Assembly: GCA_018433925.1 (NCBI GenBank)
Contig: JAHDQI010000019.1
Span: forward strand, 1-37,847
Direction of reading: 5' to 3'
Length of the DNA: 37,847 bases
DNA from: Phycisphaerae bacterium
GTDB taxonomy: Bacteria; Planctomycetota; Phycisphaerae; Sedimentisphaerales; Anaerohalosphaeraceae
Made by a program: the position numbers and the translations under genes. Positions 344 through 19,310 of this stretch are shown here, one piece after another. Below the pieces are notes generated by a model. That model was not told the DNA's origin and made no database searches. It saw nothing but the letters and a program-made list of their open reading frames with translations. Numbering within the stretch: position 1 is the stretch's first letter; each line of letters starts with the position of its first letter.

Positions 344-928
344 TCAAAGTGTTTTCCGCCTTCGCAGCCATCCGACCACCATCAGGCCTACGGTGCCGAG
401 CATAATCGCACCCGGTGTCGGAACGGCCGCAAGAGTCGGCTCCCCGAGTACTTTGTCGGAATCATAGTGGACGACCAGTTGAGAGGTCACGATGACCGCA
501 TCATCCCAGAGATCAAAAAGCCAGTCATATCCAAAATGGAGAGTGGCACCCACCTGAACGCCATTGAGCCAGTTGACATCGATATCTTCATAAAGATTGG
601 TTCCCGCATACAACTGACCAAGATCATGAAGATCGCCGTGTTTATCGGTAAATGTCAAGACGACTTCTTCGTCCCAGTCAGCGATACCGCAGGCCGTAAC
701 GACCAAGTCCACATCCAGAATCCCGCCGTTGGCCAGTGTCATCTCATAATCGGCGACGCCCCAGAACGGGTTGTCATGGGCCCAGGTGACTGTGTCCTGA
801 TAAGGGCCGATGATCGTGGTCAGCAGGTATTCATCGATTTCGACTTCATCAACCACATACACAGGCGCTGCCTGCAGGGCAAAAACCATCACAACGCTGA
901 ACATCAAGAACAAACAGATTCTTCTCAT
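344..928 (-). CDS. Exported protein with PEP-CTERM-like sorting tail
   Basis: This 194-aa protein has an N-terminal signal peptide (MRRICLFLMFSVVMVFALQA) and a beta-rich, acidic middle I cannot assign to a family. Its C-terminus reads VPTPGAIMLGTVGLMVVGW followed by LRRRK. That is the architecture of an exosortase substrate: a Pro-rich motif, a hydrophobic helix and a basic end, here with P-T-P-G-A in place of the classic P-E-P. I chose the ATG at 926-928 because GGAG lies 10 nt upstream. The frame extends to a TTG at 949, which lacks such support. It lies 61 bp after the 990-1568 gene and is probably co-transcribed with it. The exosortase at 10222-12216 is the obvious candidate processing enzyme, by inference. 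Confidence 0.8.
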   Translation of the reverse strand: MRRICLFLMFSVVMVFALQAAPVYVVDEVEIDEYLLTTIIGPYQDTVTWAHDNPFWGVADYEMTLANGGILDVDLVVTACGIADWDEEVVLTFTDKHGDLHDLGQLYAGTNLYEDIDVNWLNGVQVGATLHFGYDWLFDLWDDAVIVTSQLVVHYDSDKVLGEPTLAAVPTPGAIMLGTVGLMVVGWLRRRKTL

Positions 929-989
929 TTTCTTCACTCTCCATTTCAATTGTAAACCAGCTTGTTGTTTCTAACGATTCATTCGATTC

Positions 990-1568
990 TTAAAAAGATC
1001 CTCTCGTCCGAATCCATCCGACCACCATCAGGCCAAAGGTACCGAGCATGATCGCACCGGGCGCGGGAACCGCGGCCGTGACAACCTTGAAGGATACTCC
1101 GTTGTTGTAATAATGGCAGTCCGGATCGAATCCGAGAGCAATTCGTCCATCTGCACCCCATTCATTCAGCAGGGCCAACTGATCGGCGGTGAAGGTGACC
1201 ACCAGATCTTTGGTCGTATCCCATTCCGCCGGATCATCCCAATTGATCAGCAGGTCACCCTGACCGGCAAAAAAGTCACCATCGCCGGCTCCGTCCCAAT
1301 CCCGACTGAGTCCGAGTTCGGCATCGTCCAGAAGATGAACATACAAATTGTCATCCTCTGCTTTCCAGTTGTAGATGTCGGTAAAGGTCAGTACGGCTTC
1401 GGTAATCGGCGTCTCGGAGGTACTGAATTCGAGATCAATCCCCCATGTGTAAGCATAGTAGTGATCCAAATCGAAGATGTCCTGTTCCGGGGGCGTAAAC
1501 ACGGCATCCGCAAACAAAGAACCGCTTAAAATTAACACCGCTCCAATAATAAACATTCCCTTTTTCAT
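990..1568 (-). CDS. Exported protein with PEP-CTERM-like sorting tail
   Basis: This 192-aa protein has a signal peptide at 1-20 (ending SLFADA), a beta-sandwich-like body and a tail VPAPGAIMLGTFGLMVVGW with a following Arg-rich end. The tail is nearly identical to that of the next gene. The body carries YTWGIDLEF, ITEAVLTF, LYVHLLDD and, later, LALLNEWGADGRIALGFDPDCH. The same blocks, more diverged, occur in the protein at 34557-36365, where a LamG domain separates them. AGGACAGGATC directly precedes the ATG and supplies a Shine-Dalgarno. It is likely the first gene of a two-gene unit. It is probably anchored or processed at the cell surface by an exosortase, which is family knowledge plus inference. 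Confidence 0.82.
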   Translation of the reverse strand: MKKGMFIIGAVLILSGSLFADAVFTPPEQDIFDLDHYYAYTWGIDLEFSTSETPITEAVLTFTDIYNWKAEDDNLYVHLLDDAELGLSRDWDGAGDGDFFAGQGDLLINWDDPAEWDTTKDLVVTFTADQLALLNEWGADGRIALGFDPDCHYYNNGVSFKVVTAAVPAPGAIMLGTFGLMVVGWIRTRGSF

Positions 1569-2025: not shown

Positions 2026-5000
2026 TCAATCTCTTACGTATTTATTTAATTCGATTAGTTGCTCTGAAGATAATACCGGCTGCTGAAGATTCCACTTTTG
2101 TACCTGATCAAAGAGTTTGACGGCCTCAGTATTTTTCCCTAATCGCAAGAGCGTTTTTGCCAAACGAAAACCGGTTCCGATTCTGTTTGACGAATTTGGC
2201 GGATAAAGTGTCATCGCCTTTTCGAAATCCTCTTTGGCTTTTTCATACCTTTCGGCCAATAGATATATCTCCCCCCGTGTGTCCAGCAAATCCGAATTTT
2301 CCGGCTGGATATTCAGTCCCCTATTGGCCCATTGCAATGCCTCCTCCGTATTTTTGTTCTCATGCGCCACAATCCAAGCCAGATTATTCATGGCAATTAC
2401 CCGCAGGGAATCTTCTGCGGCGGGCTCGGCAGTGGAATGGAGTGCTTTGCGATACCTCCGTTCGGCGGCCTGATAGGACTGTTGATAATGTTCCAGCCGT
2501 CCCAATGATACATTCAAGTGGGGGTGATCAGGATATTTTTCAAGCAGGAACAGCAATCCATTACGTGCCGTCTGTCGTGCCTTTGTGTCCTCATCCATTC
2601 CAAGCTGTAAACACAAATCCGCAAGGACCGGCATCTGCTGGGGCGAATCAATCCCTTTTTGCTGAAACAGAGTCTCCAGCGAAGCCCATTGCTGATCCCG
2701 AATTAAAAGACCCGCCCATCGCTGGAGAGTTCCGGCTGAATCCCGACCCTGCCCATCCAGCGTTTCATAAAGCTGCCGCGCCTGTTCCTTTTGGCCCTTC
2801 TGATACAGGGCCATCATATACACCTGCTGTAGAGGAATTGACGCCTCTTGCCCCCGTCTTTGAATGGCCTGGCTCAGAAAATCCGCCGCCGCATCGGCCT
2901 GGCCGGTGTGTAGATACGTTTCGCCAAGGATCGCCGCAATCCGGTCATCCTCAGGATACCGCTGATGGAGGTCTTCAAGAGTCGGAATAGCCAGGTTTCT
3001 TGAACGGATGCTTTCAATCTGTGCCTTCAGCAGGATCAAGGCCTTGCTGTCCGGAAAATAACCCAGCCCCTGAAGCACATAATCCATCGCTCGGCCGGCC
3101 TGTCCTTTTCGATAAGACCAGTCCCCCAACAGCACCCAGGCCGTTTCCATACGCGGATATTCGGCGACCAGCGAAGCCAGCAAGTCTTCGGCCTGTTCCG
3201 TGGACGCAGAGGTGTTCTCTCGCAGCAGAGATTGGGCCTTCAGCAAGCGCAGTTCAGGATCACGGGGCTGTTCAGCGAGGGCCTTTTCGAGTACCGCAGC
3301 GGTTTTCGTATTTTTCGGGTCGCGCGAAAAAATCACGGCCGCCTTTTTTAAAACAACGAAATCATCCGGGTTCGCCGCCAGGGCCTCCTCCATTATTTGG
3401 CCGGCCAGGTCCGGCCTGCCCATATACAGATACAGGTCGCCGGCCAGCAGCAGATGGTCCTGACTGCGGTCGGTCCGCTCGAGCATCTGATTTAGATCCG
3501 CCTGGGCTCCCTGCGGATCACGGAGTTTGATCCGGGTCATTGCGCGCAGCGTATAAAGCTTGGGATCCTCAAATCGGGAGACGGCCTGATCACAAATTCG
3601 AATCGCCAGTTCCGGCTGCTTTCTTCGAATTGCCAATTCCACCTTCGCGGCAATTGCCGGCATCGATTCGGGATTGTCGGCAAGCAATTGGTCAATTAAC
3701 TGCTCGGCCTCATCCAGGTGATCCTGATATAGGCGAATGAGAGCCAGTGACAGTTTGAGATTCTGATCTTCCGGAGACTGCGCCATCATTTCCCGGAGGA
3801 TTTCCGAAGCCGATCCGAGTTTGCCCTGCCGCAATAAATGACGCGCTTCCAGCCGGGAAAGGCGAGGGTCACGAAGGCCCCGCCGCGATACCAATTCAAT
3901 TACGTTCTCCGCCTGCCGATACTCTTCCGCGCGATACATGGCCCCCACGGCCGAGACCACCAGATCCATGTTCTCGGGGTCTCGCGCCAGCGCATCCTGA
4001 TATTCGGCGATAGCCAGTCGCAGATTGCCTGCGGCCTCATGGCTGGAAGCCAGCAGAATTCGGCTGGCCAGGTCTTCCGGATAATCGCGCAAAATCCCCT
4101 CTAAAAGAGAAATCACCTGCGGGTACTCTCTGCTCATATCGCCTCGTTCATACAACAGACGGGCCTGCTCATATCTCCATTGTCGTCCCTGCTGCCCTTC
4201 GAGCGTTCGGATTTCCTCAATCCACTCCTGCAGTTTCCGCTGCGATTCTGTCTTTCGGGTTAACTCCAAAAGACGCCTTCTGACAGGAATATCCTGCGGC
4301 TCTTCCCTTGCCAACGCGGTCAGTTCTTCTATCGCCGCTTCTTTTTGTTCTGCCAGTACATACAGCTCGGCTTTCCAGAGCCGCAGTGTTTTTTGGGTTT
4401 GGGGAATATCGGCCTGCTCAATCCATTGTTCGAGTCGATTAAGGCAGGGCTGTATTTGCTGATTCTGGACATCCAGGAGAATCCGTTTTTTTACCGGCTC
4501 GAGCGAATTCGGGGCCTCTTGAATCGCCTGGTCAAGAACCTCAGCGGCCTGTTGGGTCTGTCCGAGGGCGGCCAGCAAATCCGCCCGGAGCAACCGAGTC
4601 TGCAACGGATCGGCCTTCTGCTGTTCGAGTTGAGTTAATTGCTGAGCAGCCTGCTCAACCTGCCCCTGTCGGATCGCCGCCTGAATCTGGAGGGCCTGAA
4701 TCGAAGGATCCTCCGGATGAAGATCGCGAAGGCGGCCCATCAAAGAAAGCCATTCTTCATCCTCCGGGGAGATTTGGGCCGACTGGGCCTGCTGCATTTT
4801 GATTTCCAGCAACAGTTTCTGCATTGCCGGATCATCAGGCCGCAGTCGAAGGGCCTGCCTGGCATGATCCATCGCCTCAGCCCACCGGCCGGCCTCCGCA
4901 GACCAACGGGCCAGCAGAGAATGGCCCTGCTGGAGATCCGGCTGACGCATCAGCAGAGAACGAATCTGCTGAATCGCGGCCATTCGGTCTCCCATTCGTT

Positions 5001-6186
5001 CAAGCGCCTGGGCCAGTTTGATCTGAATGTTGAAATTTTGATTGGGGGAGGCAGCGACTTTTCTCCAGGCCGCGATCGCATCCGGCCAATGGCCCTGTGC
5101 TTCGGCAAGCAACCCTTCGAGATAAGTTAAGACTTCCTGGCGTTCCTGCCGGTCAGCCAGGGTCTGAATACACTGGCGAGCTTGCTGCCACCGGCCGGCC
5201 TGAATATACAGTTCGGCGGCCACACTGAGAAAATCGTAGGGGTCCGGCCCCATGGCCGCAAGCCCCTTTTCGGCAACCCAGGCCATCTCTTCTTCCGATC
5301 CGCTTTGAAGGGCCCATTGTGCCCACAGCGTCCAAAGCAGCAAATCCCCGGCATCCTCTTCCGCCAATGCCTCCAGCCAGGTCCGGGCCTCTTCCATCCG
5401 GTTCGAAAGCAAACAGACCGATGCGAACTGCGTTTTCTGTTCCCGTGTGGTCAGGCCCAGCGACAACGCCCGCTGACTGTCCGACTGCGCTATTTGGGGC
5501 TGCTGATTTTGGATCGCATAACGAGCCCGATACAAATAGGCCAGCGGATTGTCCGGGGCTGCTTCCACCGCCCGGGTGAGCCACTCGAGAGGGGTCTTTT
5601 CGGACGTTTCAGGACTCTTTTCAGCCGCCTGGGCCAGGAGCAGGTACGCCTGGAGAAAATCCGGCTCCTGCTCGATTAACGTCTTCAGGCGGCTGACGGC
5701 CTGTTGGGTCTGATGCTGCTGCATCTGGGCCCGGGCCGCAAAACAGACGATCTGCGGGTCAAACTTGTTTTTCAGATAGGCCTCCGCATTCCGCTCGGCT
5801 TCGAGTGGATCTCCGGACAGATACAGTTCAATGAGCCTCTTTCGGGCCTGCTCATTTTCCTCGATTCGCAAAACCTGATGATAGGACCGGAGGGCCTGTT
5901 CGACATGTTCTTTTTTGAGCGGCCTGCGATTCAACTGCGCATCGGCATACTTTAATAACATCTCCACATCCTGATCCGGCATGATGGCCGCCAGGTACTG
6001 TCCGAGAAAATCGGCCGCCCTGTCCCACTGTTCGGCTTCGTAGGCCTCCTGTCCCAGCCGCAGTCCCCGATCCGCCCGCAACTGCTTGTTCCAGTACCAC
6101 AGGCCCGTAACCGTAACGGCGACGGCAACGACTCCAAGGAAACATACGATCAAAAAATTCCAGTTGATGCGTCCCGACCGATTCAT
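2026..6186 (-). CDS. Giant membrane-anchored TPR-repeat protein of the EPS/exosortase cluster
   Basis: This 1386-aa protein has a short basic N-terminus, one membrane segment (about residues 9-31, WNFLIVCFLGVVAVAVTVTG) and then almost continuous tetratricopeptide repeats to the C-terminus. Clear units include AEAYLKNKFDPQIVCFAARA, MDHARQALRLRPDD and ALQWANRGLNIQPENSD. TPR proteins of this kind accompany exosortase/EPS loci (the PEP-CTERM-system TPR family) and are thought to scaffold export or assembly. Most family members are lipoproteins, but here the anchor looks like a transmembrane helix and I see no lipobox. The ATG at 6184-6186 is chosen because AAAGGA lies 9 nt upstream. An upstream in-frame ATG at 6219 adds 11 residues. 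It is the last gene of the cluster. The repeat domain should face the periplasm. Confidence 0.85.
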   Translation of the reverse strand: MNRSGRINWNFLIVCFLGVVAVAVTVTGLWYWNKQLRADRGLRLGQEAYEAEQWDRAADFLGQYLAAIMPDQDVEMLLKYADAQLNRRPLKKEHVEQALRSYHQVLRIEENEQARKRLIELYLSGDPLEAERNAEAYLKNKFDPQIVCFAARAQMQQHQTQQAVSRLKTLIEQEPDFLQAYLLLAQAAEKSPETSEKTPLEWLTRAVEAAPDNPLAYLYRARYAIQNQQPQIAQSDSQRALSLGLTTREQKTQFASVCLLSNRMEEARTWLEALAEEDAGDLLLWTLWAQWALQSGSEEEMAWVAEKGLAAMGPDPYDFLSVAAELYIQAGRWQQARQCIQTLADRQERQEVLTYLEGLLAEAQGHWPDAIAAWRKVAASPNQNFNIQIKLAQALERMGDRMAAIQQIRSLLMRQPDLQQGHSLLARWSAEAGRWAEAMDHARQALRLRPDDPAMQKLLLEIKMQQAQSAQISPEDEEWLSLMGRLRDLHPEDPSIQALQIQAAIRQGQVEQAAQQLTQLEQQKADPLQTRLLRADLLAALGQTQQAAEVLDQAIQEAPNSLEPVKKRILLDVQNQQIQPCLNRLEQWIEQADIPQTQKTLRLWKAELYVLAEQKEAAIEELTALAREEPQDIPVRRRLLELTRKTESQRKLQEWIEEIRTLEGQQGRQWRYEQARLLYERGDMSREYPQVISLLEGILRDYPEDLASRILLASSHEAAGNLRLAIAEYQDALARDPENMDLVVSAVGAMYRAEEYRQAENVIELVSRRGLRDPRLSRLEARHLLRQGKLGSASEILREMMAQSPEDQNLKLSLALIRLYQDHLDEAEQLIDQLLADNPESMPAIAAKVELAIRRKQPELAIRICDQAVSRFEDPKLYTLRAMTRIKLRDPQGAQADLNQMLERTDRSQDHLLLAGDLYLYMGRPDLAGQIMEEALAANPDDFVVLKKAAVIFSRDPKNTKTAAVLEKALAEQPRDPELRLLKAQSLLRENTSASTEQAEDLLASLVAEYPRMETAWVLLGDWSYRKGQAGRAMDYVLQGLGYFPDSKALILLKAQIESIRSRNLAIPTLEDLHQRYPEDDRIAAILGETYLHTGQADAAADFLSQAIQRRGQEASIPLQQVYMMALYQKGQKEQARQLYETLDGQGRDSAGTLQRWAGLLIRDQQWASLETLFQQKGIDSPQQMPVLADLCLQLGMDEDTKARQTARNGLLFLLEKYPDHPHLNVSLGRLEHYQQSYQAAERRYRKALHSTAEPAAEDSLRVIAMNNLAWIVAHENKNTEEALQWANRGLNIQPENSDLLDTRGEIYLLAERYEKAKEDFEKAMTLYPPNSSNRIGTGFRLAKTLLRLGKNTEAVKLFDQVQKWNLQQPVLSSEQLIELNKYVRD

Positions 6187-6239
6187 GAAAACATGTCCTT
6201 TCCGTTTATGTCTGATCATCCATGCAGCATGTGTCGATT

Positions 6240-7865
6240 TTATCCGAACTGATCCAGAAATTTACCGATCAGCATCCGGGCAGTAGAAAAACAAATCCAG
6301 GCATCCGTCCGGAAGGACATCTGTCTGACGTAGATCGTATCGTATCGAATCCATTCCTGAAAATCCATCGAGGCCTCCCGCGTGCGGCAGACCTGCCAGA
6401 GGCCCGTAATCCCCGGCCGGACCGAAAGCCGGGCATCCCTCCAGGCGGGACAAAATTCATTTTCGCTTTCCGGCGAGGGACGCGGACCGACAATACTCAT
6501 TTGCCCGGCCAGTACATTAAAAAACTGCGGCAGCTCATCAATACACGTGTCGCGAAGGAATTTCCCGATAGGACTGACCCGGGGGTCATCCTCCATTTTA
6601 AACTGGGGGCCGTCTACCTGGCTGGCAAAGCGGAGCTGTTCCTGCAGGGACTCGGCCTGTTCCATCATGGTTCGAAACTTCAGGCAGCCGAACTCCTTTC
6701 CGTGCAGGCCCTGTCTGCGAGCCCGGTAAAAAACAGGACCCGACGAAGTTAATTTGACCGCGAGCGCAATAAAAGGAAAAAAGGGAACAAAAAAGATCAG
6801 AATGCAGAAAGAGACGAGTATGTCCAGCATCCGTTTAAAAAATCGCGGGTATGAAAAAGCCGGCCAGTTTCGAAACACGGATTCTTCCCGGCTTTCAGTC
6901 TCCCAGTTTGCCGTCTGCAGCGGGAGTTCTGTATCCTGAACCGTCTGCGCTGAAGCGATCAAAACACGGCGCTGGATTCGGCTGTCCGGGGCAATCGCCA
7001 CTGCGGGTCCGGCAAGTACCCTGCGAACTACCGAGCCGGCCCCGATTGAGGCCCCGTCACACAAAACGGCCGGAGCCGTGATGACGGTCTCGGGTTCGAT
7101 CCTGACATTTCGGCCCGTGTGAATGGTTCCCTGTATCCGAACGGAGGGATCGCAAACAAGCCCGTTTCGGCTGCCGCCGGCCGGCCAGGTCCGGCTGAAT
7201 TCAAGCAGTTGATTGTGCCCGGCGGGCGTGAACAGGTCCAGCCGCCGTCCACCGACGCGAACAAAGCGGCAGACCACCCCGTTTTTTTGACAACAATCCA
7301 CAAAGGCGGGAAATGAACTCCAGGCTTGTTCGGGCAGTCGTTGACAAATCTCAGACTTGCAGAAAAGATGATCCGGCCAGTCGTCGGACGGCTCATCGGG
7401 TTCGGCGGTGGATTCATACTGCCTGCGAAAACCGATGATCTGATTTCGCATGACCGTCACCTGCTCACGAGCGTAATCCAGTTCGGGATCGACGCATACC
7501 GCCAGCACATCCCAGGCAAATGAAGAAAAGACCGAATTCAGGTGATCCGAATTGAGTCCGGTTAAAATGCCGGCATTGGACAGGACCAGATCAGCCGGGT
7601 CAGAGGCCTGGGGCACCGATTGAAACAGGGAGGATATCCTGTCTGCGGGATAGAGATAAACAGACGGATCTTCCCGCAGATCAGTCAGATTCCATGCCTC
7701 CGATGCGCAAATCCGACAACACGAAGCCTCCAGCGGATAATACCTTTTAACCATCTCCAGAAGAATTCGATTGGCCGGAAAAGAAGACAGCCAGAATCGA
7801 GCCTGTTCGGACCCCGAATCAAAGCCGGTGTGCGGATAAAAAATAAGATAAGGCAGTAATTTCAT
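6240..7865 (-). CDS. Polyprenyl-phosphate sugar phosphotransferase fused to an NTase-like/LbH N-terminus
   Basis: The last ~200 of 541 residues are a bacterial sugar transferase (WcaJ/PssY-type phosphoglycosyltransferase). It has a membrane segment after FKRMLDILVSF, then SSGPVFYRARRQG, FGCLKFRTM, the catalytic Asp-Glu in IDELPQFFNVLAGQMS, VGPRP and RPGITGLWQV. It would move a sugar-1-phosphate from UDP-sugar to undecaprenyl phosphate to start the glycan. The usual multi-helix N-terminal region is missing. Instead residues 1-~225 look like a very degenerate nucleotidyltransferase (note LDLFTPAGHNQLLEF) and ~236-305 show hexapeptide LbH repeats (VRIQGTIHTGRNVRIEPETV). I took the ATG at 7863-7865; a GTG two codons upstream is also possible, and neither has a strong Shine-Dalgarno. 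It follows the BY-kinase gene by 15 bp. Confidence 0.88.
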   Translation of the reverse strand: MKLLPYLIFYPHTGFDSGSEQARFWLSSFPANRILLEMVKRYYPLEASCCRICASEAWNLTDLREDPSVYLYPADRISSLFQSVPQASDPADLVLSNAGILTGLNSDHLNSVFSSFAWDVLAVCVDPELDYAREQVTVMRNQIIGFRRQYESTAEPDEPSDDWPDHLFCKSEICQRLPEQAWSSFPAFVDCCQKNGVVCRFVRVGGRRLDLFTPAGHNQLLEFSRTWPAGGSRNGLVCDPSVRIQGTIHTGRNVRIEPETVITAPAVLCDGASIGAGSVVRRVLAGPAVAIAPDSRIQRRVLIASAQTVQDTELPLQTANWETESREESVFRNWPAFSYPRFFKRMLDILVSFCILIFFVPFFPFIALAVKLTSSGPVFYRARRQGLHGKEFGCLKFRTMMEQAESLQEQLRFASQVDGPQFKMEDDPRVSPIGKFLRDTCIDELPQFFNVLAGQMSIVGPRPSPESENEFCPAWRDARLSVRPGITGLWQVCRTREASMDFQEWIRYDTIYVRQMSFRTDAWICFSTARMLIGKFLDQFG

Positions 7866-7880
7866 GGCCACAAGCGGTGT

Positions 7881-10172
7881 TTATGCATTTTCCTCTTCAG
7901 ACGAAGGAGCCGTCTTTCCGTTGGCAGGAGAGGAAATCAGCAGCAGCCGATCCTCCCGCTTTCGTTTTTTCCGGGTCTTGCCCCCGGTCGATTGCCTCTC
8001 ATAACCGTAGCCATAGCCATACCCATAAGACCGGTAGCCCTGCTCTACTTTGACGTTGTTGATAACCGTCCCGATGATATTGGCGTCGATCTGGCGCAAG
8101 CGGCTGATGGCTTCCTTCGTCTCTGTCTTCGAGGTATGGCCCAGGAAAGTCGTCAAAATAACCGCATCGGACAGTCGGGCCAGCACAAGGGCATCGGCAA
8201 AAGCAAGAACCGGAGGCGAATCAATGATGACAATATCAAACGTTTCCTTGAGTTTGCCAATCCGCTCAGCCGCCTGCGGGTGTGCCAGCAGGTCCAGGGC
8301 ATCGGCACTGTTGCGGAAATCGGAAGCCAGGACAAACAACGGGCTGTCCTGATACCGGTAGAGGCATCCCTCCAGATTTTTTCCAAACAGGTAATCCTGA
8401 AAACCTCGCAGGGCCGCCGGCAGATGCATCGTTTCCCCCACATCCGGCTTTCGCAGGTCGGCATCAATCAGCAGGGTTTTCTTGCCTGAATTGGCAAAAC
8501 TAGAGGCCAGGTTGATCGAAAAAGTCGTCTTTCCATCCTTGATACCCGGGCTGGTAACAAGAATGATTTTCTTGTCCGTCTGGCCGTTCAACAGGCCAAG
8601 ATTGGCCCGGATCGTCTGGTAATCATCGCTGAGCTGCTGGGGAAGCAGGTTTCGCTTGACCGAATTGGGATTGGTCGTGGTGCCCAGGATCCGAACCTGG
8701 ACGCGTCTGACCATTTCCTGAGGATCCATGATGCGTTTATCGGCCCGATGCAGAAGGAACGCCACCAATGTGCCGAGGGCCAGCCCCCCAAATCCGACAG
8801 CACCGGCCATTTTTTTTCGCTTTCCCGATACCGGCACACTGACCGCCTCATCAGCGATTGAGATCCGCGTCGGCCGGCGGCGCTCGATATTCAACTCCTC
8901 AATCCTGCGGCTGACCTGCTGCCAGCGTTCTTTGGTCAGCAAGAGCTGTTCCCGCTGATCATCAATCGTAAACTGCTTTCGCCCGATGCGTATGGCCTCA
9001 CTGTCCTGCTCCTTGAGCTTTTCCTGCAGCCGCTGCTGAAGGGTTCCCAGTTGAGCACGCTGGTTTTTGAGATCATTCAACTGAAGCTGACGGCTGGTAA
9101 TCTGTTTTTCCTGAAAACTGTCCTCAAATTCCTGAGCCACTTCCTCTTTGCGTTCCTCATAGCGTTCCTGCAGGGTCTGGAGAACCTGTTCCTGGCGGAC
9201 CAGCTCCGGATTGTTCGGATGCATAGTCTGTCGGCTGACCAGGATCTGCCGTTCATACTGGCGAAGATCCTCGGCAATCGCCTGAAGAACCGGGTCCTGC
9301 TCGAGGATTTCGCTTCGCTGCTGTATGAAGTGTTCGCTCGACGAAAAACCGGGTCCCTGTTCGAGTATCTGAATCTGCGTATCAATGGCCAGAAGCTGGA
9401 TTTCAACATCTGTCAATTCCCCCTGCAGACTGGACATCTGGGCGTATTGCAGTTCCTGACGACTGAGCAGTTCCCCGGTGCCGAATTCCTCGGCCAATTG
9501 ACGAATCGTTTCCTGCTGCGCTTCAATTTTCTGGGTGAGCTGCTTGTACTCATCCTGCAGGGTTGCCAGCCGGGCATTGTCTTCCCGAATGGCACCTTCA
9601 ACAGCAACCGCCATATAATTGCGAATCATCGAATTGATCAGAAGCTGGGCCTGCGAGACCAAATCTTCCGGAGTCGTTACTTCAACGACAATGAGAAACG
9701 ATCGGCGGTCCGGTTCAATGGCGATATGGCCCCTGTCAATGGCCTTATGCAGCGCCAGGTGCATATCCGGAGTTCCCTCAAATAAGCTTAACTGTTTGTC
9801 TTTCAAATCTTCGGCCACTCGACGGAGCACTTTATCGCTGGCCATAATGGAGGCCTGCGTATATTTAAAGCCGTCATAGTTCGGCATCGGCCGGTCTGAT
9901 TCACTGTCGTGATACAAAATCGCGGGAATAATCGGAGCCACTTCGATCGCCCCGGAAGTTCGAAATTGGCGCTTAACCTGGACCAAAATGATCGGGATTC
10001 CAATCGCATAGACGATACCCGCTACCAGAACAATCACCCACCAGCGCCGACGCAACATACCTCCCAAATCCAAATCGGGAGTTTGTGATGCGGCCTCCGC
10101 GTCAGCAGATTCAAACTCTACCAGCTCATGGCTTTCTTCTAAATCCTTGTCGATTTTATGCAAATAATCCAT
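7881..10172 (-). CDS. Wzz-type chain-length regulator fused to BY-family tyrosine autokinase
   Basis: This 763-aa inner-membrane protein has a first membrane helix at about 43-65 within a Wzz-type start (LGGMLRRRWWVIVLVAGIVY) and a long periplasmic region rich in coiled coil (about 196-430). A second helix lies near 455-475, followed by a cytoplasmic kinase. Walker A is SPGIKDGKTT (541-550, Lys548), Walker A' is LLIDADLRKP (567-576) and Walker B is VIIDSPP (648-654). A tyrosine cluster follows at 713, 716, 718, 720, 722 and 724 (YRSYGYGYGYGYE), the expected autophosphorylation site. It should control polysaccharide polymerisation and export through phosphorylation cycles. Fusing both halves in one chain matches the Wzc type of Gram-negative bacteria. 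It sits between the exosortase fusion and the phosphoglycosyltransferase. Confidence 0.93.
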   Translation of the reverse strand: MDYLHKIDKDLEESHELVEFESADAEAASQTPDLDLGGMLRRRWWVIVLVAGIVYAIGIPIILVQVKRQFRTSGAIEVAPIIPAILYHDSESDRPMPNYDGFKYTQASIMASDKVLRRVAEDLKDKQLSLFEGTPDMHLALHKAIDRGHIAIEPDRRSFLIVVEVTTPEDLVSQAQLLINSMIRNYMAVAVEGAIREDNARLATLQDEYKQLTQKIEAQQETIRQLAEEFGTGELLSRQELQYAQMSSLQGELTDVEIQLLAIDTQIQILEQGPGFSSSEHFIQQRSEILEQDPVLQAIAEDLRQYERQILVSRQTMHPNNPELVRQEQVLQTLQERYEERKEEVAQEFEDSFQEKQITSRQLQLNDLKNQRAQLGTLQQRLQEKLKEQDSEAIRIGRKQFTIDDQREQLLLTKERWQQVSRRIEELNIERRRPTRISIADEAVSVPVSGKRKKMAGAVGFGGLALGTLVAFLLHRADKRIMDPQEMVRRVQVRILGTTTNPNSVKRNLLPQQLSDDYQTIRANLGLLNGQTDKKIILVTSPGIKDGKTTFSINLASSFANSGKKTLLIDADLRKPDVGETMHLPAALRGFQDYLFGKNLEGCLYRYQDSPLFVLASDFRNSADALDLLAHPQAAERIGKLKETFDIVIIDSPPVLAFADALVLARLSDAVILTTFLGHTSKTETKEAISRLRQIDANIIGTVINNVKVEQGYRSYGYGYGYGYERQSTGGKTRKKRKREDRLLLISSPANGKTAPSSEEENA

Positions 10173-10221: not shown

Positions 10222-12216
10222 TCACGGATTGGCTTTTTTTCGGACGATCACGTCCGTTTTGGCAAGCTGCACGTCCGGATCAATCACGACCTTTGAAAGA
10301 AACCAAAGTTCGACCAGTGTAATGCCCAGTGCCAGCGGCATCATCGCCAGCCCGCCGTAGTCATGAAAGGCCTTTTCCCATTCCTCCGCGTCCAGATACA
10401 TAAACGCAATCGACGTCACGGTGAGCCGCAGGGTATTACACAATAATGCTATCGGCACACTGGAGATCAAGATTATGATCTTTTCCCAGAGTTTCCTTCG
10501 ACTGAGTAAAACAACGAATCCGGTCACGACAAAAAAGGCCGTCAACATCCGAAGTCCATTGCAGGCCTCCGCTACGGCCACAAGAGTCCCATTGATATTA
10601 ATTATATTCCCCTCACGAATAATCTGAAAACCAAGCGTTTCAAGACAGAAAACAGCGGAAACTGAGGCCCATTTTTGCAAAGGGATAGTGATCCTCCATT
10701 CAATCATTTTCGGCAGGGGAAACATCAAAATCAGATAAAGCCAGACCGGAAAAATCGCCTTTAAAGCCCGCCAGCCAAGCACCATCCAAATCAGGACACC
10801 CGCGGTCAGGAACAGGGAAAGTCGCTCAAGCGAAGGGGACCATATCAAAAGACCGATAAGACGAAGGATCTGTACGCCAAGCAAAAACAAGACAGCCGCC
10901 GGAACCGGTTTGATCGGACATTGAAGCAGGGCCTTCCTGCGATCCCACAGGACATAGGCGGCCAGGAGTGGAACCAAGATTCCGCTTGAATATTCGTCGC
11001 TTTGCATCCATGTCTGCCACAGCTCAATCAGTGTCGGATTCCAATAGGCCGTTAATAAACAACAGAAAACAGCCAGAAAAAGAAGTAGCCCGGCCGCCTG
11101 TCCGCCGGGTTTTGAAAATCGCCTTAACAGGGTATCTTCGAATGCAGACCCATGCCCGGTCGATCGATCTCCGGTTCTGGCAAAAACCTGTCTCATCCAA
11201 TCCGAGAAAAGAGAAACCGGACCCGATGAACGCACCACAACCTGTTTATTGACGTTCGCGCAGGACGAAAGTCGAGTTATTCGATCCACCAACGCATCCT
11301 GAATCTGACTTTGACGGCCGATTACCGCGTGCTCCCAGATCACACTTTCACTGACCAGCGCCTGTTCGTGAATCTGAACCCCGGACTCAAGCATGAAAGG
11401 GCCGAAGAGCAAGGCATTGGCTTCAATCGTTACATTATCTCCAATAAGAGCGGGACCGATAATTTTTGCTGAAGGATCAATGGTTACATTCTGACCAATC
11501 CAGACTCGCTGCTGACTGTCGTACTGCTTAAAGCCCCTGTGAAGCAGGTCACCTTCCGGCAGATTGACCAGGTATTCCTTGACTGCCTGTATATATTCAG
11601 TCCAGTGCCGAAATGTACCGACAGGTTTCGTTAATTGCGCATAGGCAACCACCTGACCGGCCTGCACAAGAGTTGGAACCAAATTCTCTTTGCTGTCAAA
11701 AAAGCCCTGTGCCGGGATATATTTAACAATCTCCGGTTCACAGACATAAATCTGTGCATCCCGGATATCCTGCTGAAGGCCGCCGGCCATGGGCGCAAAG
11801 AAAATCGTCATCAGGCCGGCTTTTTCACGGTGGGCCGAGATCAGTTCATGGAGGTCCGGCGGCGCCGTAGTGGCGGCGGGAAAAACAAACAACAGTTGAT
11901 CCTGTTTCGGATCGGCGGCGTCTCGGATGCAGCCGGCCGTCCCCCTCGGCAGATTTTCTACCCGATATTCCACATTCAGATGTTTGGGGAAATCCAGCGA
12001 TTCCTCAATTCCGCAATCATCCTGATAATAACAGATGACAAACCGACGCACTCCCTGGCTGGAGATATGCTCTACAAGCTGCTGGAGAACGGGTCGGCCC
12101 GCAATCGGCCAGAGAGCCCGATTCATCCGTGTCGCCAGCGGACAACGGCCGAAATCCGGTGCACCAACCAGAATTACGGCCTTTACATCGTCTACATTAT
12201 AGGTTTTAGGAGTCAT
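10222..12216 (-). CDS. Exosortase fused to a degenerate sugar-nucleotidyltransferase/LbH domain
   Basis: The frame is one uninterrupted 664-codon gene. Residues ~11-215 align by eye with NDP-sugar pyrophosphorylases (AVILVG, ALWPIAGRPVLQQLVEHI, RGTAGCIRDA). However, the G-x-G-x-R loop reads GAPDFGRCPLA, the PK pair is Asn32-Arg33, the metal-binding N-G-D position reads FPA, and the Asp of 'DxGTP' is Pro198. Residues ~235-315 are left-handed beta-helix hexapeptides (VWIGQNVTIDPSAKIIG). From ~375 on it is a polytopic exosortase/archaeosortase domain with all three catalytic residues: Cys552 in AEACNGLR, Arg597 in CNTLRLT and His618 in FHDYGG. It should cleave and transfer PEP-CTERM proteins at the membrane. 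There is no convincing internal start before the exosortase part. Flanked by an SDR 12 bp upstream and the BY-kinase 49 bp downstream. Confidence 0.92.
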   Translation of the reverse strand: MTPKTYNVDDVKAVILVGAPDFGRCPLATRMNRALWPIAGRPVLQQLVEHISSQGVRRFVICYYQDDCGIEESLDFPKHLNVEYRVENLPRGTAGCIRDAADPKQDQLLFVFPAATTAPPDLHELISAHREKAGLMTIFFAPMAGGLQQDIRDAQIYVCEPEIVKYIPAQGFFDSKENLVPTLVQAGQVVAYAQLTKPVGTFRHWTEYIQAVKEYLVNLPEGDLLHRGFKQYDSQQRVWIGQNVTIDPSAKIIGPALIGDNVTIEANALLFGPFMLESGVQIHEQALVSESVIWEHAVIGRQSQIQDALVDRITRLSSCANVNKQVVVRSSGPVSLFSDWMRQVFARTGDRSTGHGSAFEDTLLRRFSKPGGQAAGLLLFLAVFCCLLTAYWNPTLIELWQTWMQSDEYSSGILVPLLAAYVLWDRRKALLQCPIKPVPAAVLFLLGVQILRLIGLLIWSPSLERLSLFLTAGVLIWMVLGWRALKAIFPVWLYLILMFPLPKMIEWRITIPLQKWASVSAVFCLETLGFQIIREGNIININGTLVAVAEACNGLRMLTAFFVVTGFVVLLSRRKLWEKIIILISSVPIALLCNTLRLTVTSIAFMYLDAEEWEKAFHDYGGLAMMPLALGITLVELWFLSKVVIDPDVQLAKTDVIVRKKANP

Positions 12217-12228: not shown

Positions 12229-13200
12229 TCAGGATTGAAGCCGATCTCGCAAGTCTTGTATGATAAGATTGAGTGTTTGATCCAGCGAATAGTCAGGGCG
12301 ATAACCGATGGCCTCATGAATTCGTGCCAGGTCCGGCCGACGTCGAATCATATCATCAAACGGACGGCCGTACGCCTGTTCATAACTGATTTGTTTTTTT
12401 GTACTCTTGCTGGTTGTCATGCGGATGATGCGACCCGCGAGCGCATCAATTGTGACTTCCTCATCCGAACCGAGATTAAAAACCCGGCCGGGGGCCTTTG
12501 GGCAGGCCATCAACTTTTCAAGGGCGTCGATTACATCAAAAACACAGCAAAAACAGCGCGTTTGCTCGCCGCTGCCGTAGATTTCAATGGGTTCATTCTG
12601 CAGGGCACGCCGAACAAAGCGAGGAATGACCATGCCATACTGCCCGGTTTGTCGCGGCCCGACCGTATTGAATAAACGGACGATAATCACCGGAAGACCG
12701 TACTGCTGGTGATAGGCCAGGCCCAGAAATTCGTCAATCGCCTTGCTGCACGCATAGGACCAGCGGCTGAAACGGGTACTGCCCAGAACCGAGTCGTCAT
12801 CCTCATGAAACGGGACGGCCTCGCTTTTGCCATACACTTCGCTGGTCGAGGCCAAGAGAACTTTTTTGCTGAATTTATTGGCAGTTGACAGGACAACTTC
12901 GGTACCGTGAATATTGGTTTCAATGGTATGTACCGGCCGATCGACGATCAACTGAACGCCTACGGCCGCCGCCAGGTGGTAAATCACATCACAGGATTCA
13001 ACCAGCAGATTCATCACCGTCTCGTTGCGAACCGAATCGAGCACAAAACGAAAGCGAGGATGGTCCTGCACCGCCTGAATATTCTGCAGGGAACCGGTGC
13101 TTACATCATCGATGACGGTGACATGATGGCCGCTTTTGAGCAGTGATTCGGCCAGGTGCGAACCGATAAATCCCGCTCCGCCTGTGATGAGAACATGCAT
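12229..13200 (-). CDS. NAD-dependent epimerase/dehydratase (extended SDR, NDP-sugar)
   Basis: This 323-aa protein starts with the Rossmann motif GGAGFIGSH (7-15) and an acidic residue pair after beta-2 (DD at 31-32), suggesting NAD. The active site has STSEVYG near 118-124 and Y149-ACS-K153. RLFNTVGPRQ and the phosphate-binding region IEIYGSGEQTR are typical of UDP-sugar 4-epimerases, UDP-glucuronate decarboxylases and NDP-hexose dehydratases. It acts in the cytoplasm on a sugar nucleotide to supply an EPS precursor. The exact reaction cannot be read from sequence alone. It lies 12 bp before the exosortase fusion in the same direction. Confidence 0.9.
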   Translation of the reverse strand: MHVLITGGAGFIGSHLAESLLKSGHHVTVIDDVSTGSLQNIQAVQDHPRFRFVLDSVRNETVMNLLVESCDVIYHLAAAVGVQLIVDRPVHTIETNIHGTEVVLSTANKFSKKVLLASTSEVYGKSEAVPFHEDDDSVLGSTRFSRWSYACSKAIDEFLGLAYHQQYGLPVIIVRLFNTVGPRQTGQYGMVIPRFVRRALQNEPIEIYGSGEQTRCFCCVFDVIDALEKLMACPKAPGRVFNLGSDEEVTIDALAGRIIRMTTSKSTKKQISYEQAYGRPFDDMIRRRPDLARIHEAIGYRPDYSLDQTLNLIIQDLRDRLQS

Positions 13201-13221: not shown

Positions 13222-14712
13222 CTATTTCATTGTTCGACTTCGTTGCAGCCAAAAACCGGCAAATGCTGCAAAATCAAGCATATTAATTACCCGGTCTCCC
13301 CCCGGCGGCGCCAGGTCGCAGGCGGAATTCCAGGCATCCGTCCCAGGCACCGATAACCAGGCCTGGGCAAACACCATCAGGTCATCCGCATCAACACGGC
13401 AGTTGCCGGTGAAGTCGGCCGGGAAGTCCGTTTCGCACAGAATACCATCCCACATTCGGCTTAACAACATAAAATCCGGGTAATTAACGATTCCATCGCC
13501 CCCTTTGGGCTCGATATCACAGACAGGGTTCCAGGTCTCGTGGTCTTTCTGTGAGAGCCAGTGGTCGCTCATTAAGACGAGATCTTTCATGGCTACAGTA
13601 CAGTCCTGATTCAAATCCGCATCTTTGATTTCCGCGCAGCTTCGACGCATCCAGAACATGCTGAACCGAGCAAAATCACTGCCGTCAACAATGCCGTCGC
13701 CGCCATCCGGAGCAATATCACAGATCGAATTCCAGTCCGGATCTCCCTCCCGCGTCATCCAACTACCAGTCAGAATCAGATAATCATCGATATCCACCCG
13801 GCAGTCGCCATTGAAATCCCCTTCCATGACCGGACAGCCGTCCCATCCCGCCAGCCGGGCCCAAAGATACCAGGCAGCTTTGCCCTTCTGGTTACAATTC
13901 AACGGCCTGGAATGAGAACATCCGCAAAAAAACCAGTCAATCCCCTCTTGATGATGTTCCTGCCATTCGACAGCCCAATTTGAATCCCTCTGGCCGTCTC
14001 CATCCGAATCATAGTTGCATTCTTCGTCTACGGCTTTATCGCCGAAATAATCGCCGTCAGGATTGTATAATTCAATATCATAAAAATCATATAATATTTT
14101 TCCTTGCATACGGCAATAATCACGGATTACCGTACTCCAATAATGAACTTCTCCCTCTTCACCTGAGCCATCAGCATGCGCTGTCATGTAAACAAATTTT
14201 ACATGCGGATAATCTGCTTCCAACTGACTCATAGCCGGCAAATATATATTCAATATACCCTCTTCTGATGCATGTAAATAGCACCAGGCCCACATGACTA
14301 CGTTCACATTTGAATTTGCCGGATCATCCAGATATCTTCTTGTGGCTATTTCCCATGAAGGATAATACTCGAGATCTCTTGCGCTGGGCTCCTGCTCCCA
14401 ATAATATGGTGAAATGACACCGGTTCTCAAATCCAGCGCCCCATCCAGTCCGCCGTTATTAAATTCATAAAGTCCTGTATTCCCGGTGAAATAACGCAAC
14501 CCGTCCATCCCAATAATCAACTGAGAACCATGTGAGGTGTGTTGATAAGCAATATGAAGTGATTCTTTCGCCTTTTGGATCCAATACTCCGGAATTGCAT
14601 CAAAAACTCCTACACTCTTGTGATCGACAATAATCGATTCTCCGGCGTTGACCGGATTCGATATAATCAGAAGTGAAAAAAGAAGTAACCAATAGCGCTC
14701 AACAGTAACCAT
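13222..14712 (-). CDS. Secreted SGNH-hydrolase-like protein with three dockerin-type repeat pairs
   Basis: This 496-aa protein has a signal peptide at 1-23 (cleavage near NAG-ES). Residues ~26-295 form an SGNH/GDSL-like domain related to planctomycete proteins with YQHTSHGSQ (56-64) near the N-terminus and KAAWYLWARLAGWDG near the end of the domain. The catalytic residues are not certain. Three tandem ~60-residue units follow (about 299-355, 364-421 and 430-489). Each has two Ca-binding-type loops (e.g. DFNGDCRVDIDD and GGDGIVDGSDF) and a conserved WNxxCDIxPxGGD linker. The protein may deacetylate or trim glycan outside the cytoplasm, by inference. GAGAG about 7 nt before the ATG supports the start. 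It interrupts an otherwise biosynthetic gene order. Confidence 0.8.
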   Translation of the reverse strand: MVTVERYWLLLFSLLIISNPVNAGESIIVDHKSVGVFDAIPEYWIQKAKESLHIAYQHTSHGSQLIIGMDGLRYFTGNTGLYEFNNGGLDGALDLRTGVISPYYWEQEPSARDLEYYPSWEIATRRYLDDPANSNVNVVMWAWCYLHASEEGILNIYLPAMSQLEADYPHVKFVYMTAHADGSGEEGEVHYWSTVIRDYCRMQGKILYDFYDIELYNPDGDYFGDKAVDEECNYDSDGDGQRDSNWAVEWQEHHQEGIDWFFCGCSHSRPLNCNQKGKAAWYLWARLAGWDGCPVMEGDFNGDCRVDIDDYLILTGSWMTREGDPDWNSICDIAPDGGDGIVDGSDFARFSMFWMRRSCAEIKDADLNQDCTVAMKDLVLMSDHWLSQKDHETWNPVCDIEPKGGDGIVNYPDFMLLSRMWDGILCETDFPADFTGNCRVDADDLMVFAQAWLSVPGTDAWNSACDLAPPGGDRVINMLDFAAFAGFWLQRSRTMK

Positions 14713-15534: not shown

Positions 15535-16023
15535 TTATTTTTCCTTTACCATATCGAGCAGAAACAGATGAACGCATTCCGCAAGTTTTTCCGGCTGGCT
15601 TTTTCTCTGAACGGGAACAAAAGATTTCAGACGGCTTATTTTCACAAACAAATCTTCTTCATCATAAGCCGCCAAGACATGTCCTAATGCCTCAAACTTG
15701 TGGGCTGTTTCCATCTGATGGTCATTTACAAGTTCGCGATAACACTTTTGTCTGGGCATCACAAGAATCGGCTTTTGTAATTGGCAGGCCATGGAAATTG
15801 TCCCCATCCCGGCATGGGCCACAATATAATCCGCCTTTTCAAAGCAGCGATCATATTCCTTTTTATCCAAGCTCTCAACCGCCGTAAAGACCTTCGGTCG
15901 ATACCCCCCTATACCCACTTGTGCTGTTATTTCCTCCGTAATCAAACCCCGTCGCACCGCTGCCTCGACAGCGTATATCAACCGATCAAAGGGAAAAGAA
16001 GTACCAACAGTCACAAAAATCAT
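15535..16023 (-). CDS. Alg13/PssE-like glycosyltransferase catalytic subunit
   Basis: This 162-aa protein begins [15 protein letters not shown] and has [20 protein letters not shown], the UDP-GlcNAc-binding half of a GT28-type enzyme, followed by the PRQ(K)xxxELVNDHQ segment. The length matches the Alg13, PssE and Cps14G family (~160 aa). These proteins work only with a membrane-bound Alg14-type partner, which is encoded immediately upstream with a 4-bp ATGA overlap. Together they would transfer a sugar, commonly GlcNAc, Glc, GlcA or Gal, to the lipid-linked acceptor on the cytoplasmic face. Confidence 0.9.
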
Positions 16024-16502
16024 AAAAGAGCTCCAACGTACTTTGCCTTGTTATATCGTTCGGCAACTTCGGGCCATTGCGTCAACAGCAAATCAGCAAA
16101 ATGAAGGGCTAGGCGGCCGCTCACAGAAAGCTTTTTCATATTCGCAATGCTGTCAATCCACACCACTTTCGCTCCGCACAGTTTCGCCAATCCACAAAAA
16201 AGAGCCAGGGGCATTGAGCCGGTCGTGATCACCGCATCCGGCCGTTCCTTCAGGACAATCCGAAAACTTCGACACAATGTTTTAAGGGCCTTCCACGGAT
16301 GATGTCGATTGCATTCTCCGATGACATAGACAGGTCCCCGCTCTTCCAGTTTCTCGGCCACCGCCTGCAAAGTGGTTACATAAAAGGCCGGCTGAATCGG
16401 CCACAGATCCGAGTGCTCCAGCAGTTTGAGCAACTGATTCATATGCCCCCCGGCAGACGCTCCGGCACACAATTTAAGGGACTTGCAACCTTTTGATTTC
16501 AT
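16020..16502 (-). CDS. Alg14/PssD-like glycosyltransferase membrane subunit
   Basis: This 160-aa protein has the family start LCAGASAGGHMNQLLKLL, TGSMPLALFCGLAKLCGAKVVWIDSIANMKKLSVSGRL in two adjoining blocks, and the end FADLLLTQWPEVAERY. It anchors and activates the Alg13-like subunit encoded next. I took the ATG at 16500-16502, which gives the usual short lead before the AGGH motif and leaves 19 bp to the preceding gene. An upstream in-frame start at 16550 would overlap that gene by 29 bp. No strong Shine-Dalgarno is seen for either start. Confidence 0.88.
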   Translation of the reverse strand: MKSKGCKSLKLCAGASAGGHMNQLLKLLEHSDLWPIQPAFYVTTLQAVAEKLEERGPVYVIGECNRHHPWKALKTLCRSFRIVLKERPDAVITTGSMPLALFCGLAKLCGAKVVWIDSIANMKKLSVSGRLALHFADLLLTQWPEVAERYNKAKYVGALL

Positions 16503-16521
16503 GGCACTTGATTTCTTCTGA

Positions 16522-17388
16522 TCAAGGGTTCCGGGACGACATTGATTCAATCAACTCCTTGGTCTCCTGAATATGAGATTTCGAGGACGCACCGAACACG
16601 ATGGACTCGATTTTTTCCTGATTGCAGATATATTCTACGGCTTCACGGGGAGCGATGGCGCCGGAAGCAAAGATCGACATCGCCACCGGCCGGAATTTCC
16701 GCTCCCGGATCGTTTTTTCGTATAATTCGATTCCTCCACACATACGAAATCCGATTTTATTAACGGAACTGCAAATAATCGGATTTTCAATTCCGCATTC
16801 TTCCAGCAGATCCAGCAGGCGGGGAAGATTCATCGTAAAGAAGGCCGGTTCGGCCCTGTATCGATTTCGTATATGATCCGCATACGACTTAAAAACATCT
16901 TTCAATTCCAGGCCCAGCAGAAGATCAGTCACAACGTTCTGCAAAAAAATGACTTCCGTGTTCAGGCCTTCAAACATCTTCATTTCCGCATCGACCATGA
17001 GTTTCATCATAGCGATAAAATCTTTGGTCGCCAGCGCCTTACCCCCTGTGAACAGAGTGCCCAGGAAACTGCCCGGGATGTATTTTTTGACCGCTCCCAG
17101 AATTCCCAGTTCGGTTACGGCATTGGCGTATTTATGTGCATAAGGCATGCCCGGATAAAACTTGAACTCCCCATAACGATCCGGGCGAGCCCGCATATAT
17201 TCGCAGACATCCGCAATCCGATCATGTGTTGTGCACATAAACGTCCGGATGCCCAGGTCGTAAGCTGTATCCAGTACTCGAAGGATAGAGGCAACATCCC
17301 GAAATTTCATGGCTTGATTACGGGCCTTTTCCTCTGACATATGATTGATTCCGAAGAACTGATTGTCACCAAATAGAATGCGATCCAC
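16522..17388 (-). CDS. Aldo/keto reductase-like TIM-barrel protein, role unknown
   Basis: This 288-aa soluble protein starts MDRILFGDNQFFGINHMS and has SILRVLDTAYDLGIRTFMCT, similar to the first barrel strands of aldo/keto reductases. It ends with IESIVFGASSKSHIQET, like their C-terminal cofactor strand. The usual catalytic Tyr after 'DTAxxYG' is not seen; the segment reads DTAYDLGIRTFMCTTHDRIA. An ordinary reductase activity is therefore doubtful. Proteins of this sort occur in polysaccharide loci. It sits 3 bp after the Gfo/Idh/MocA gene and just before the Alg14/13 pair, so it may act on a sugar with the oxidoreductase. No start conflict is evident. Confidence 0.7.
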   Translation of the reverse strand: MDRILFGDNQFFGINHMSEEKARNQAMKFRDVASILRVLDTAYDLGIRTFMCTTHDRIADVCEYMRARPDRYGEFKFYPGMPYAHKYANAVTELGILGAVKKYIPGSFLGTLFTGGKALATKDFIAMMKLMVDAEMKMFEGLNTEVIFLQNVVTDLLLGLELKDVFKSYADHIRNRYRAEPAFFTMNLPRLLDLLEECGIENPIICSSVNKIGFRMCGGIELYEKTIRERKFRPVAMSIFASGAIAPREAVEYICNQEKIESIVFGASSKSHIQETKELIESMSSRNP

Positions 17389-18626: not shown

Positions 18627-19310
18627 CTATTGTCTTTGATATCGCATGAGTACGATCCCAATTCCCAAAAGCAGCAACATGCAGGGCTCCGGAATAATGG
18701 TCACTGCAATGGTATTAACAAGATCACCCGATGTTGAACTGTCTCCGAAGGAATAACACTCAAGGACCAGTGAATACTCATGAGAAGGGTTGACTTCATA
18801 AGCTTTGAAAAGATCTATTCCTTCTCTGGAAACCGGGTCGGAAGTCCATTGCTCTAAAACGGACGGCACTGTCAGATTAGAAAACGAGAAAGCGGCCATT
18901 CCCTCCCACATTGCGGTAGTCGACGGGGAAGAAAAGGCGACATATAAAGTCTCGATAGTCGGCTTGAAGATATACGTTGATTTGGCATGTGCGTATGTGG
19001 TCATCCCTGCCTGCAAGGTTCCCACGGCAAAGGTAGAGACGGAAAACCCCCCCACGCTGGCGCCGGCCGCGGGATCGATTCGAATTTCTTCAGAGCCATA
19101 AGACCAAACTCCATAACTCTGCTCATCAAAAATAAATTGCCCAAAATCGTCCGGGTAAAGCAAGTCAAATGAGGAACTCGAATCAATGTCCGCATTGGTA
19201 TTGCCTTGAATCCAATGGACCTGTTCGGAAATGATAATCGGCCCGGCCCCCCCTGCCTGCATCGATAAACAACCGCACAAAAAAAAGAGTCTGATCAGAA
19301 TGGCTTTCAT
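18627..19310 (-). CDS. PEP-CTERM protein
   Basis: This 227-aa protein has a signal peptide (MKAILIRLFFLCGCLSMQAG), a beta-rich Ser/Thr-rich extracellular body and a classic tail IPEPCMLLLLGIGIVLMRYQRQ, that is P-E-P, a hydrophobic helix and a basic end. It is a likely substrate of the exosortase at 10222-12216 and may become a surface or EPS-matrix protein. The ATG at 19308-19310 is chosen over a GTG at 19364, because the promoter at 19370-19398 would start the transcript at about 19363. It sits inside the biosynthetic cluster but has promoter-like sequences of its own. Unlike the pair at 344-1568 it carries the canonical P-E-P. Confidence 0.88.
   Translation of the reverse strand: MKAILIRLFFLCGCLSMQAGGAGPIIISEQVHWIQGNTNADIDSSSSFDLLYPDDFGQFIFDEQSYGVWSYGSEEIRIDPAAGASVGGFSVSTFAVGTLQAGMTTYAHAKSTYIFKPTIETLYVAFSSPSTTAMWEGMAAFSFSNLTVPSVLEQWTSDPVSREGIDLFKAYEVNPSHEYSLVLECYSFGDSSTSGDLVNTIAVTIIPEPCMLLLLGIGIVLMRYQRQ

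Follow-up and report, generated by a model that had tools for sequence, protein, structure and literature searches.

A conserved planctomycete exosortase covalently joined to a catalytically degenerate nucleotidyltransferase/LbH module and encoded among EPS genes

In a 37,847-nucleotide stretch of DNA from a Phycisphaerae bacterium (contig JAHDQI010000019.1; the whole stretch is called 'the window' below), a single gene that starts with ATG and continues uninterrupted for 664 amino acids joins a nucleotidyltransferase (NTase)-like domain, a left-handed beta-helix (LbH) and a complete exosortase in one frame, as a previous sequence-only reading of the same DNA had proposed. The analysis supports that reading's description of the protein as a pseudo-enzyme covalently linked to an exosortase: the catalytic signatures have been lost throughout the family, the NTase fold is kept, and the fusion is conserved. 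Scans of the protein with Pfam placed NTP_transferase at residues 25–141 (E 8.7e-10 with the N-terminal half, or N-half, alone), Hexapep at residues 238–270 and Exosortase_EpsH at residues 386–639 (E 1e-54). The coordinates of the gene, its domains and its neighbors are given in Table 1.

Table 1. Features of the fusion gene and of the surrounding window (residue numbers are those of the fusion protein)
Feature	Position	Strand	Basis
Secreted protein, C-terminal VPTPGA sorting tail, candidate substrate	344..949	(-)	Tail profile
Secreted protein, C-terminal VPAPGA sorting tail, candidate substrate	990..1568	(-)	Tail profile
1397-aa TPR protein, PrsT-like	2026..6219	(-)	Profiles
Initiating phosphoglycosyltransferase (PGT): Bac_transf C-terminal, LbH at the N-terminus, related to the LbH of the fusion	6240..7871	(-)	Profiles
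Wzz-like chain-length determinant / tyrosine autokinase (EPS)	7881..10172	(-)	Profiles; next gene in nearly all homologous loci
Pseudo-NTase / LbH / exosortase fusion gene, 664 aa	10222..12216	(-)	ORF, Pfam and homologue scans
Exosortase domain, residues 372–645, including Cys552, Arg597 and His618	10282..11103	(-)	Pfam, NCBIfam, alignment, model
Linker, residues 331–369; basic, low confidence in model	11110..11226	(-)	Structure model
LbH (hexapeptide repeats), residues 233–330	11227..11520	(-)	Pfam, AlphaFold2
Degenerate nucleotidyltransferase domain, residues 8–232	11521..12195	(-)	Pfam, AlphaFold2, fold search
D-S-K-E in window protein, residues 174–177; family signature D-[IL]-K-E	11686..11697	(-)	Family alignment
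G-T-A-G, residues 92–95, nucleotide-fold loop retained	11932..11943	(-)	Family alignment
D-F-G-R-C, residues 21–25, replacing G-x-G-x-R loop	12142..12156	(-)	Alignments
NAD-dependent sugar epimerase/dehydratase, immediately upstream of fusion	12229..13200	(-)	Profiles
Alg14-like and Alg13-like (GT28) glycosyltransferase subunits, EPS cluster	15535..16550	(-)	Profiles

The structure of the N-half was modeled with AlphaFold2 using 26 homologues (pLDDT 90, pTM 0.87) and displays the NTase-LbH fold seen in GMPP, eIF2B-epsilon and AGPase, consistent with the nucleotidyltransferase fold anticipated for residues 1–330. A fold search with this model returned tlr0611, GMPPA/GMPPB, VTC1, AGPase and eIF2B-epsilon, with Z scores of about 30 over 310–330 residues for the top matches; sequence profiles agree with these assignments. 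The N-half therefore has the fold of a sugar-1-phosphate nucleotidyltransferase, and on the model and fold search we reject the proposition that it is some other fold. Its nearest relatives in both sequence and fold are sugar-1-phosphate nucleotidyltransferases of the tlr0611/Rv3264c type (tlr0611, among the best fold matches, is named as a UTP-glucose-1-phosphate uridylyltransferase). True NTases of that type (such as those at L158–L160) keep the catalytic motifs, whereas the fusion family has lost them. A GlmU-like acetyltransferase activity of the LbH is unsupported, since acyltransferase models matched it far below their cut-offs.

The window protein lacks the enzyme motifs that define active NTases (G-x-G-x-R, the PK lysine and the metal-binding Asp residues). 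In alignments the position of the G-x-G-x-R loop corresponds to A19-P-D-F-G23, that of the P-K pair to Asn32-Arg33, and that of the Asp preceding V-G-T to Pro198, so that these three losses stand as originally described. The loss of the N-G-D metal site is likewise borne out (the metal Asp is replaced by Ala115), but its assignment to F-P-A is not: N-G-D corresponds to Pro113-Ala114-Ala115, one residue further. Alignment of the four signature positions in homologues, as the sequence-only reading had suggested, indicates that the losses hold across the family. Among 79 unique members, neither the G-x-G-x-R loop nor the metal Asp was found in any (0/79 for each), while the lysine of the PK position is kept in three and an Asp at position 198 is present in five; the three true NTases included in the same alignment (L158–L160) display G-x-G-x-R, the PK lysine and the metal Asp. 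Decay within a single MAG is excluded, as the substitutions are shared family-wide.

Other positions are strongly retained. Gly92, Gly95 and Asp174 are invariant in the 79 family members, and Lys176-Glu177 is kept in 78 of them; because Asp174 is common to the family and to true NTases, K-E is the family-specific part of the D-I-K-E motif. A second motif, D-F-G-R-C...A-L-W-P, marks the fused group, and distant family members keep D-I-K-E and not D-F-G-R-C. Judged from these alignments, the retention of G-T-A-G and D-I-K-E indicates that the N-half is a domain under selection, and a conserved specialization rather than a product of decay.

Exosortases are membrane enzymes for the trimming and sorting of surface proteins. 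The exosortase half here retains Cys552, Arg597 and His618, none of which varies among 22 aligned homologues, in agreement with the earlier description. It scores 186.1 bits against PF09721 (cut-off 25.7) and 140 bits against the general exosortase model TIGR02602 of NCBIfam (cut-off 105.55), and so belongs to the exosortases; none of the NCBIfam models for named exosortase types (XrtA, XrtD, XrtW and others) matched this half above its cut-off, the best being XrtD (158.7 versus 400), with XrtA at 132.3 versus 208. A second, stand-alone exosortase about 29% identical is encoded in the same genome (G000:C184:29545-30435, locus L062), adjoined by its own Wzz/Tyr-kinase-like gene, and similar stand-alone exosortases are found in most relatives, with and without the tails described below.

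The whole fusion was found in one frame in about 20 genomes among 59 relatives, in full-length copies that are mostly 38–54% identical (28–29% for the most distant copy), and the G010 copy sits on a single contig of 4.25 Mb. When named genomes were scanned with the N-half as the query, 74 contigs were retrieved (L063–L136), 54 of which carry NTase, LbH and exosortase in one frame; four of those 54 are single-contig chromosomes (L097, L099, L105 and L112). The 54 fused contigs come from MAGs labelled Phycisphaerae, Sedimentisphaerales or Planctomycetota, thus from environmental planctomycetes, together with a few, apparently mis-binned, under other names. Three contigs of the scan, filed as Pelotomaculum, Kuenenia and Limnohabitans (L063, L107 and L132), carry planctomycete-type loci and are apparently mis-binned. 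Since the same frame recurs in dozens of genomes, including single-contig chromosomes, we conclude that the fusion is genuine and not an assembly or sequencing product. The earlier suggestion that separate proteins in relatives would point to an artefact was not upheld, as the separate copies are overlapping or neighboring genes of other lineages, or splits within the fused clade.

In a tree of the exosortases, the fused copies form one supported clade (98/99) with a few separate exosortases nested inside it, a pattern consistent with one fusion event and later splits or contig cuts. In the rest of the class, the exosortase mostly has a gene to itself. Family f42 contributes three genomes that group weakly with the fused clade; in family f115, four genomes make up a fused branch of their own (98/99), and a second fusion event is therefore possible. 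Several individual loci depart from the usual arrangement. A 1382-aa frame at L082:8-4156 apparently joins pseudo-NTase, exosortase and Wzz/Tyr-kinase in a triple fusion, possibly through a lost stop codon between genes; G624:C211, with an open frame of 1384 aa in the class search, may be the same contig. A 554-aa fusion at L050:791-2455 (G023:C395) keeps part of the pseudo-NTase and the exosortase, has no LbH, and has Ser in place of the Asn that follows the catalytic Cys. In G011:C50, the pseudo-NTase stands alone (L125:5917-7284; 455 aa, of which about 100 are an insertion), and a separate exosortase gene follows 292 bp beyond it.

The fusion gene lies within an exopolysaccharide (EPS) gene cluster whose order is strongly conserved: NTase(-exosortase), Wzz/Tyr-kinase, LbH-PGT and a TPR protein of about 1390 aa follow one another in nearly all loci with enough downstream DNA, and the same order surrounds stand-alone pseudo-NTases (L071, L098 and L100). 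The TPR protein of the window falls short of the PrsT cut-off (TIGR02917; 260.8 versus 312.2 bits). Upstream of the fusion, the sugar epimerase/dehydratase is conserved in some nearer relatives only, and the Alg14-like and Alg13-like genes are often directly upstream in relatives. A dockerin-type protein (type I and GC-type dockerin matches) is encoded at 13222-14712, upstream of the epimerase, and dockerin-bearing relatives occur near the fusion in G003, G004 and G014. Other families of the class have the pseudo-NTase together with the PGT in one block, usually with Wzz/Tyr-kinase between them; a separate exosortase of the same subfamily is located near that block in L187, adjoins a TPR gene in L193 and L194, and adjoins both a TPR gene and PAPGA-tailed proteins (see below) in L200. 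In another exosortase clade the pseudo-NTase and exosortase ORFs overlap by 4 bp (ATGA in L129, L132 and L133; GTGA in L134). Some genomes contain the pseudo-NTase and lack the exosortase, which argues that the module has a role of its own. What had originally been proposed as a link to sugar-nucleotide metabolism is better described as one to EPS initiation, given that Wzz/Tyr-kinase and PGT are the module's constant neighbors with or without the exosortase.

The same module is found attached to the PGT itself. Pseudo-NTase/LbH-PGT fusions occur in two Nitrospira, another member of Nitrospirae, one deltaproteobacterium and two planctomycetes; among the 74 named contigs they are found at L122, L128, L130 and L131. 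In the window, the LbH of the PGT matches that of the fusion in a profile comparison (hhalign, E 1e-19), and the segment preceding it is weakly NTase-like. Scored alone, that segment reached 8% against the fused family, 58% against true NTases and 3% against a reversed control; because these scores are weak, we downgraded a full second pseudo-NTase in the PGT to a shared LbH, possibly with an NTase remnant. The f115 loci combine the fusion with a PGT in which no LbH could be detected, an arrangement that argues against LbH-LbH pairing being the sole link.

Past the TPR gene, two same-strand genes for secreted proteins carry VPAPGA or VPTPGA in the C-terminal tail, followed by a hydrophobic stretch and then by basic residues. 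The elements shared by about forty tail proteins of this kind from the window and its relatives are [VI]PAPGA, a hydrophobic segment and GWLRRR. All 28 tails scanned alone against PF07589 matched it (best 8e-06), but a window tail scored 16.4, below the cut-off of 20.7, and the Glu of PEP is replaced by Ala or Thr. We regard the PAPGA tails, on their sequence, as probable divergent PEP-CTERM motifs. The window also encodes a secreted protein (18627-19364) ending in IPEP...LLLLGIGIVLMRYQRQ, a tail that is more canonically PEP-CTERM-like than those of the PAPGA proteins.

Among the relatives, tails were found in 29 of 30 genomes with a fused-type exosortase versus 7 of 29 without (p=3e-9, ignoring shared ancestry); counted by genus, exosortase versus tails gave 22/0/3/11 (p=6e-7, again with shared ancestry ignored). 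Across 248 genomes of the class, the exosortase subfamily versus tails gave 37/12/5/194, with 37 genomes sharing both (p=3e-28, without correction for ancestry). Most copies of this exosortase outside the window's order are unfused, and the corresponding counts there were 16/9/1/176, indicating that the tail tracks the exosortase subfamily and not the fusion. Since these counts come from a profile search in which a limited number of candidates was scored per genome, misses are expected. Five tail-bearing genomes are without the matching exosortase subfamily (G018, G020, G044, G449 and G603); of these, G018 keeps a stand-alone pseudo-NTase in its EPS operon (L043), and G603 has seven tails and no exosortase match whatever. 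The PAPGA-tailed proteins are, on this co-occurrence, likely substrates of this exosortase subfamily.

We believe the best explanation for these observations, with a probability of roughly 0.55, is that a non-catalytic docking domain belonging to the EPS machinery, the pseudo-NTase/LbH module, tethers the exosortase to EPS initiation, and that PAPGA-tailed proteins are cut there. The N-half would be cytoplasmic, as suggested by the basic linker that precedes the first membrane helix, and the module would make no sugar nucleotide. Its LbH could act as a docking or oligomerization platform, by analogy to GMPPA with GMPPB and to eIF2B-gamma with eIF2B-epsilon; the N-half would dock the exosortase to the EPS initiation complex, probably through LbH assembly, and the LbH-driven oligomerization of the fusion raised in the earlier reading is plausible. 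The exosortase would thereby be held beside the PGT/Wzz complex, and Cys552 would cleave PAPGA-tailed proteins where lipid-linked EPS is made. The cleaved protein might then be passed to nascent EPS or to a lipid-linked glycan, although such a transfer is speculative and the least certain part of this scheme. Against the scheme stand the f115 loci with their PGT, the weak NTase resemblance of the segment before the LbH in the window's PGT, the genomes with a pseudo-NTase and no exosortase, and the five tail-bearing genomes without the exosortase subfamily.

The invariant Gly92-x-x-Gly95 loop and intact fold could also be accommodated by a sugar-nucleotide sensor, in which the pseudo-NTase binds an NDP-sugar without turnover and switches on either the exosortase or the EPS complex when precursors are plentiful. 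A precedent is GMPPA, a regulator of GMPPB that binds GDP-mannose non-catalytically (PMC11228364), and the close fold match 7kmf is titled as sugar-phosphate activation of eIF2B. However, the pseudo-NTase has lost its phosphate loop, PK lysine and metal Asp, and sensing alone leaves the shared LbH of the PGT unexplained; NDP-sugar sensing by the N-half is speculative, and we consider the sensor unlikely. An active enzyme of different chemistry, with a new N-half active site around D-I-K-E and D-F-G-R-C, is far harder to credit: the polar residues Lys176 and Glu177 are strongly conserved and absent from active NTases, but the metal-binding Asp is missing, D-F-G-R-C is not kept in distant members that do keep D-I-K-E, and the short LbH scores far below the cut-offs of the acyltransferase models that it matches.

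The fusion might instead be an inert tether that only secures co-expression and a fixed ratio of two neighboring EPS-cluster products, with no functional interplay between the halves. The existence of the halves as separate genes in other lineages, some with the 4-bp overlap, and their renewed splitting within the fused clade are consistent with this possibility. We nonetheless judge it improbable, since the fusion persists across the window's order and in 54 of the 74 named contigs, and the N-half retains specific residues besides its fold.

The association of exosortases with EPS genes has been known since 2006. The locus resembles XrtA/EpsH–PEP-CTERM systems (Haft et al. 2006, PMC1569441): in both, the exosortase gene shares an EPS cluster with genes for Wzz/Tyr-kinase, PGT and a PrsT-like TPR protein, and secreted proteins carry tripartite C-terminal tails. 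It differs from them in its N-terminal pseudo-NTase/LbH, in matching no named exosortase type above its cut-off, and in its PAPGA tail, with Ala for Glu. Exosortase fusions to EpsI or to CAAX-protease-like domains were also reported in 2006 (Haft et al. 2006, PMC1569441) and similarly join a second domain to an exosortase, but the partners in those cases are C-terminal EpsI or membrane protease-like domains, whereas the partner here is N-terminal and has a soluble sugar-nucleotide-enzyme fold. GMPPA and eIF2B-gamma/epsilon share the NTase-LbH fold and its non-catalytic nature and work through partner assembly, as is proposed for the fusion; unlike it, they are eukaryotic soluble proteins unfused to a membrane enzyme, and their identity to it is about 15–20%. 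PGTs with extra fused domains are already known (PMC10942596), and the pseudo-NTase/LbH fused to the PGT core in Nitrospira and others recalls these bifunctional or large monotopic PGTs, except that the module is degenerate and its fused partner in the window's lineage is the exosortase. The open literature that was searched yielded no report of a nucleotidyltransferase-exosortase fusion, nor of PAPGA together with CTERM; an earlier published notice of pseudo-NTase-PGT fusions is possible. The window protein is an exosortase by every feature tested, distinguished by a partner domain of a new kind and by a variant tail.

In an extended form of the docking reading, a widespread bacterial family of pseudo-NTases would plug into EPS initiation complexes as a docking, and perhaps sensing, module. 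Its fused partner would be the PGT in some phyla and the exosortase in planctomycetes, and through it PAPGA proteins would be cleaved at PGT/Wzz and handed over to the polysaccharide being made or to its lipid-linked precursor. We regard this extension as quite unlikely in full; if true, it would identify the acceptor of the exosortase reaction. The attachment of the cleaved protein is a current question, a 2025 cyanobacterial study having weighed the outer membrane against polysaccharide (PMC12188702), and the fusion bears on it as well as on the physical connection between sorting and EPS. With the PAPGA tail, the candidate substrates of this exosortase subfamily become a concrete set that can be counted. 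The fusion seems to tie protein sorting physically to the polysaccharide-coat machinery, and, with an exosortase covalently joined to an EPS-operon protein that is fused to the PGT in other phyla, the connection between sorting and EPS becomes directly testable.
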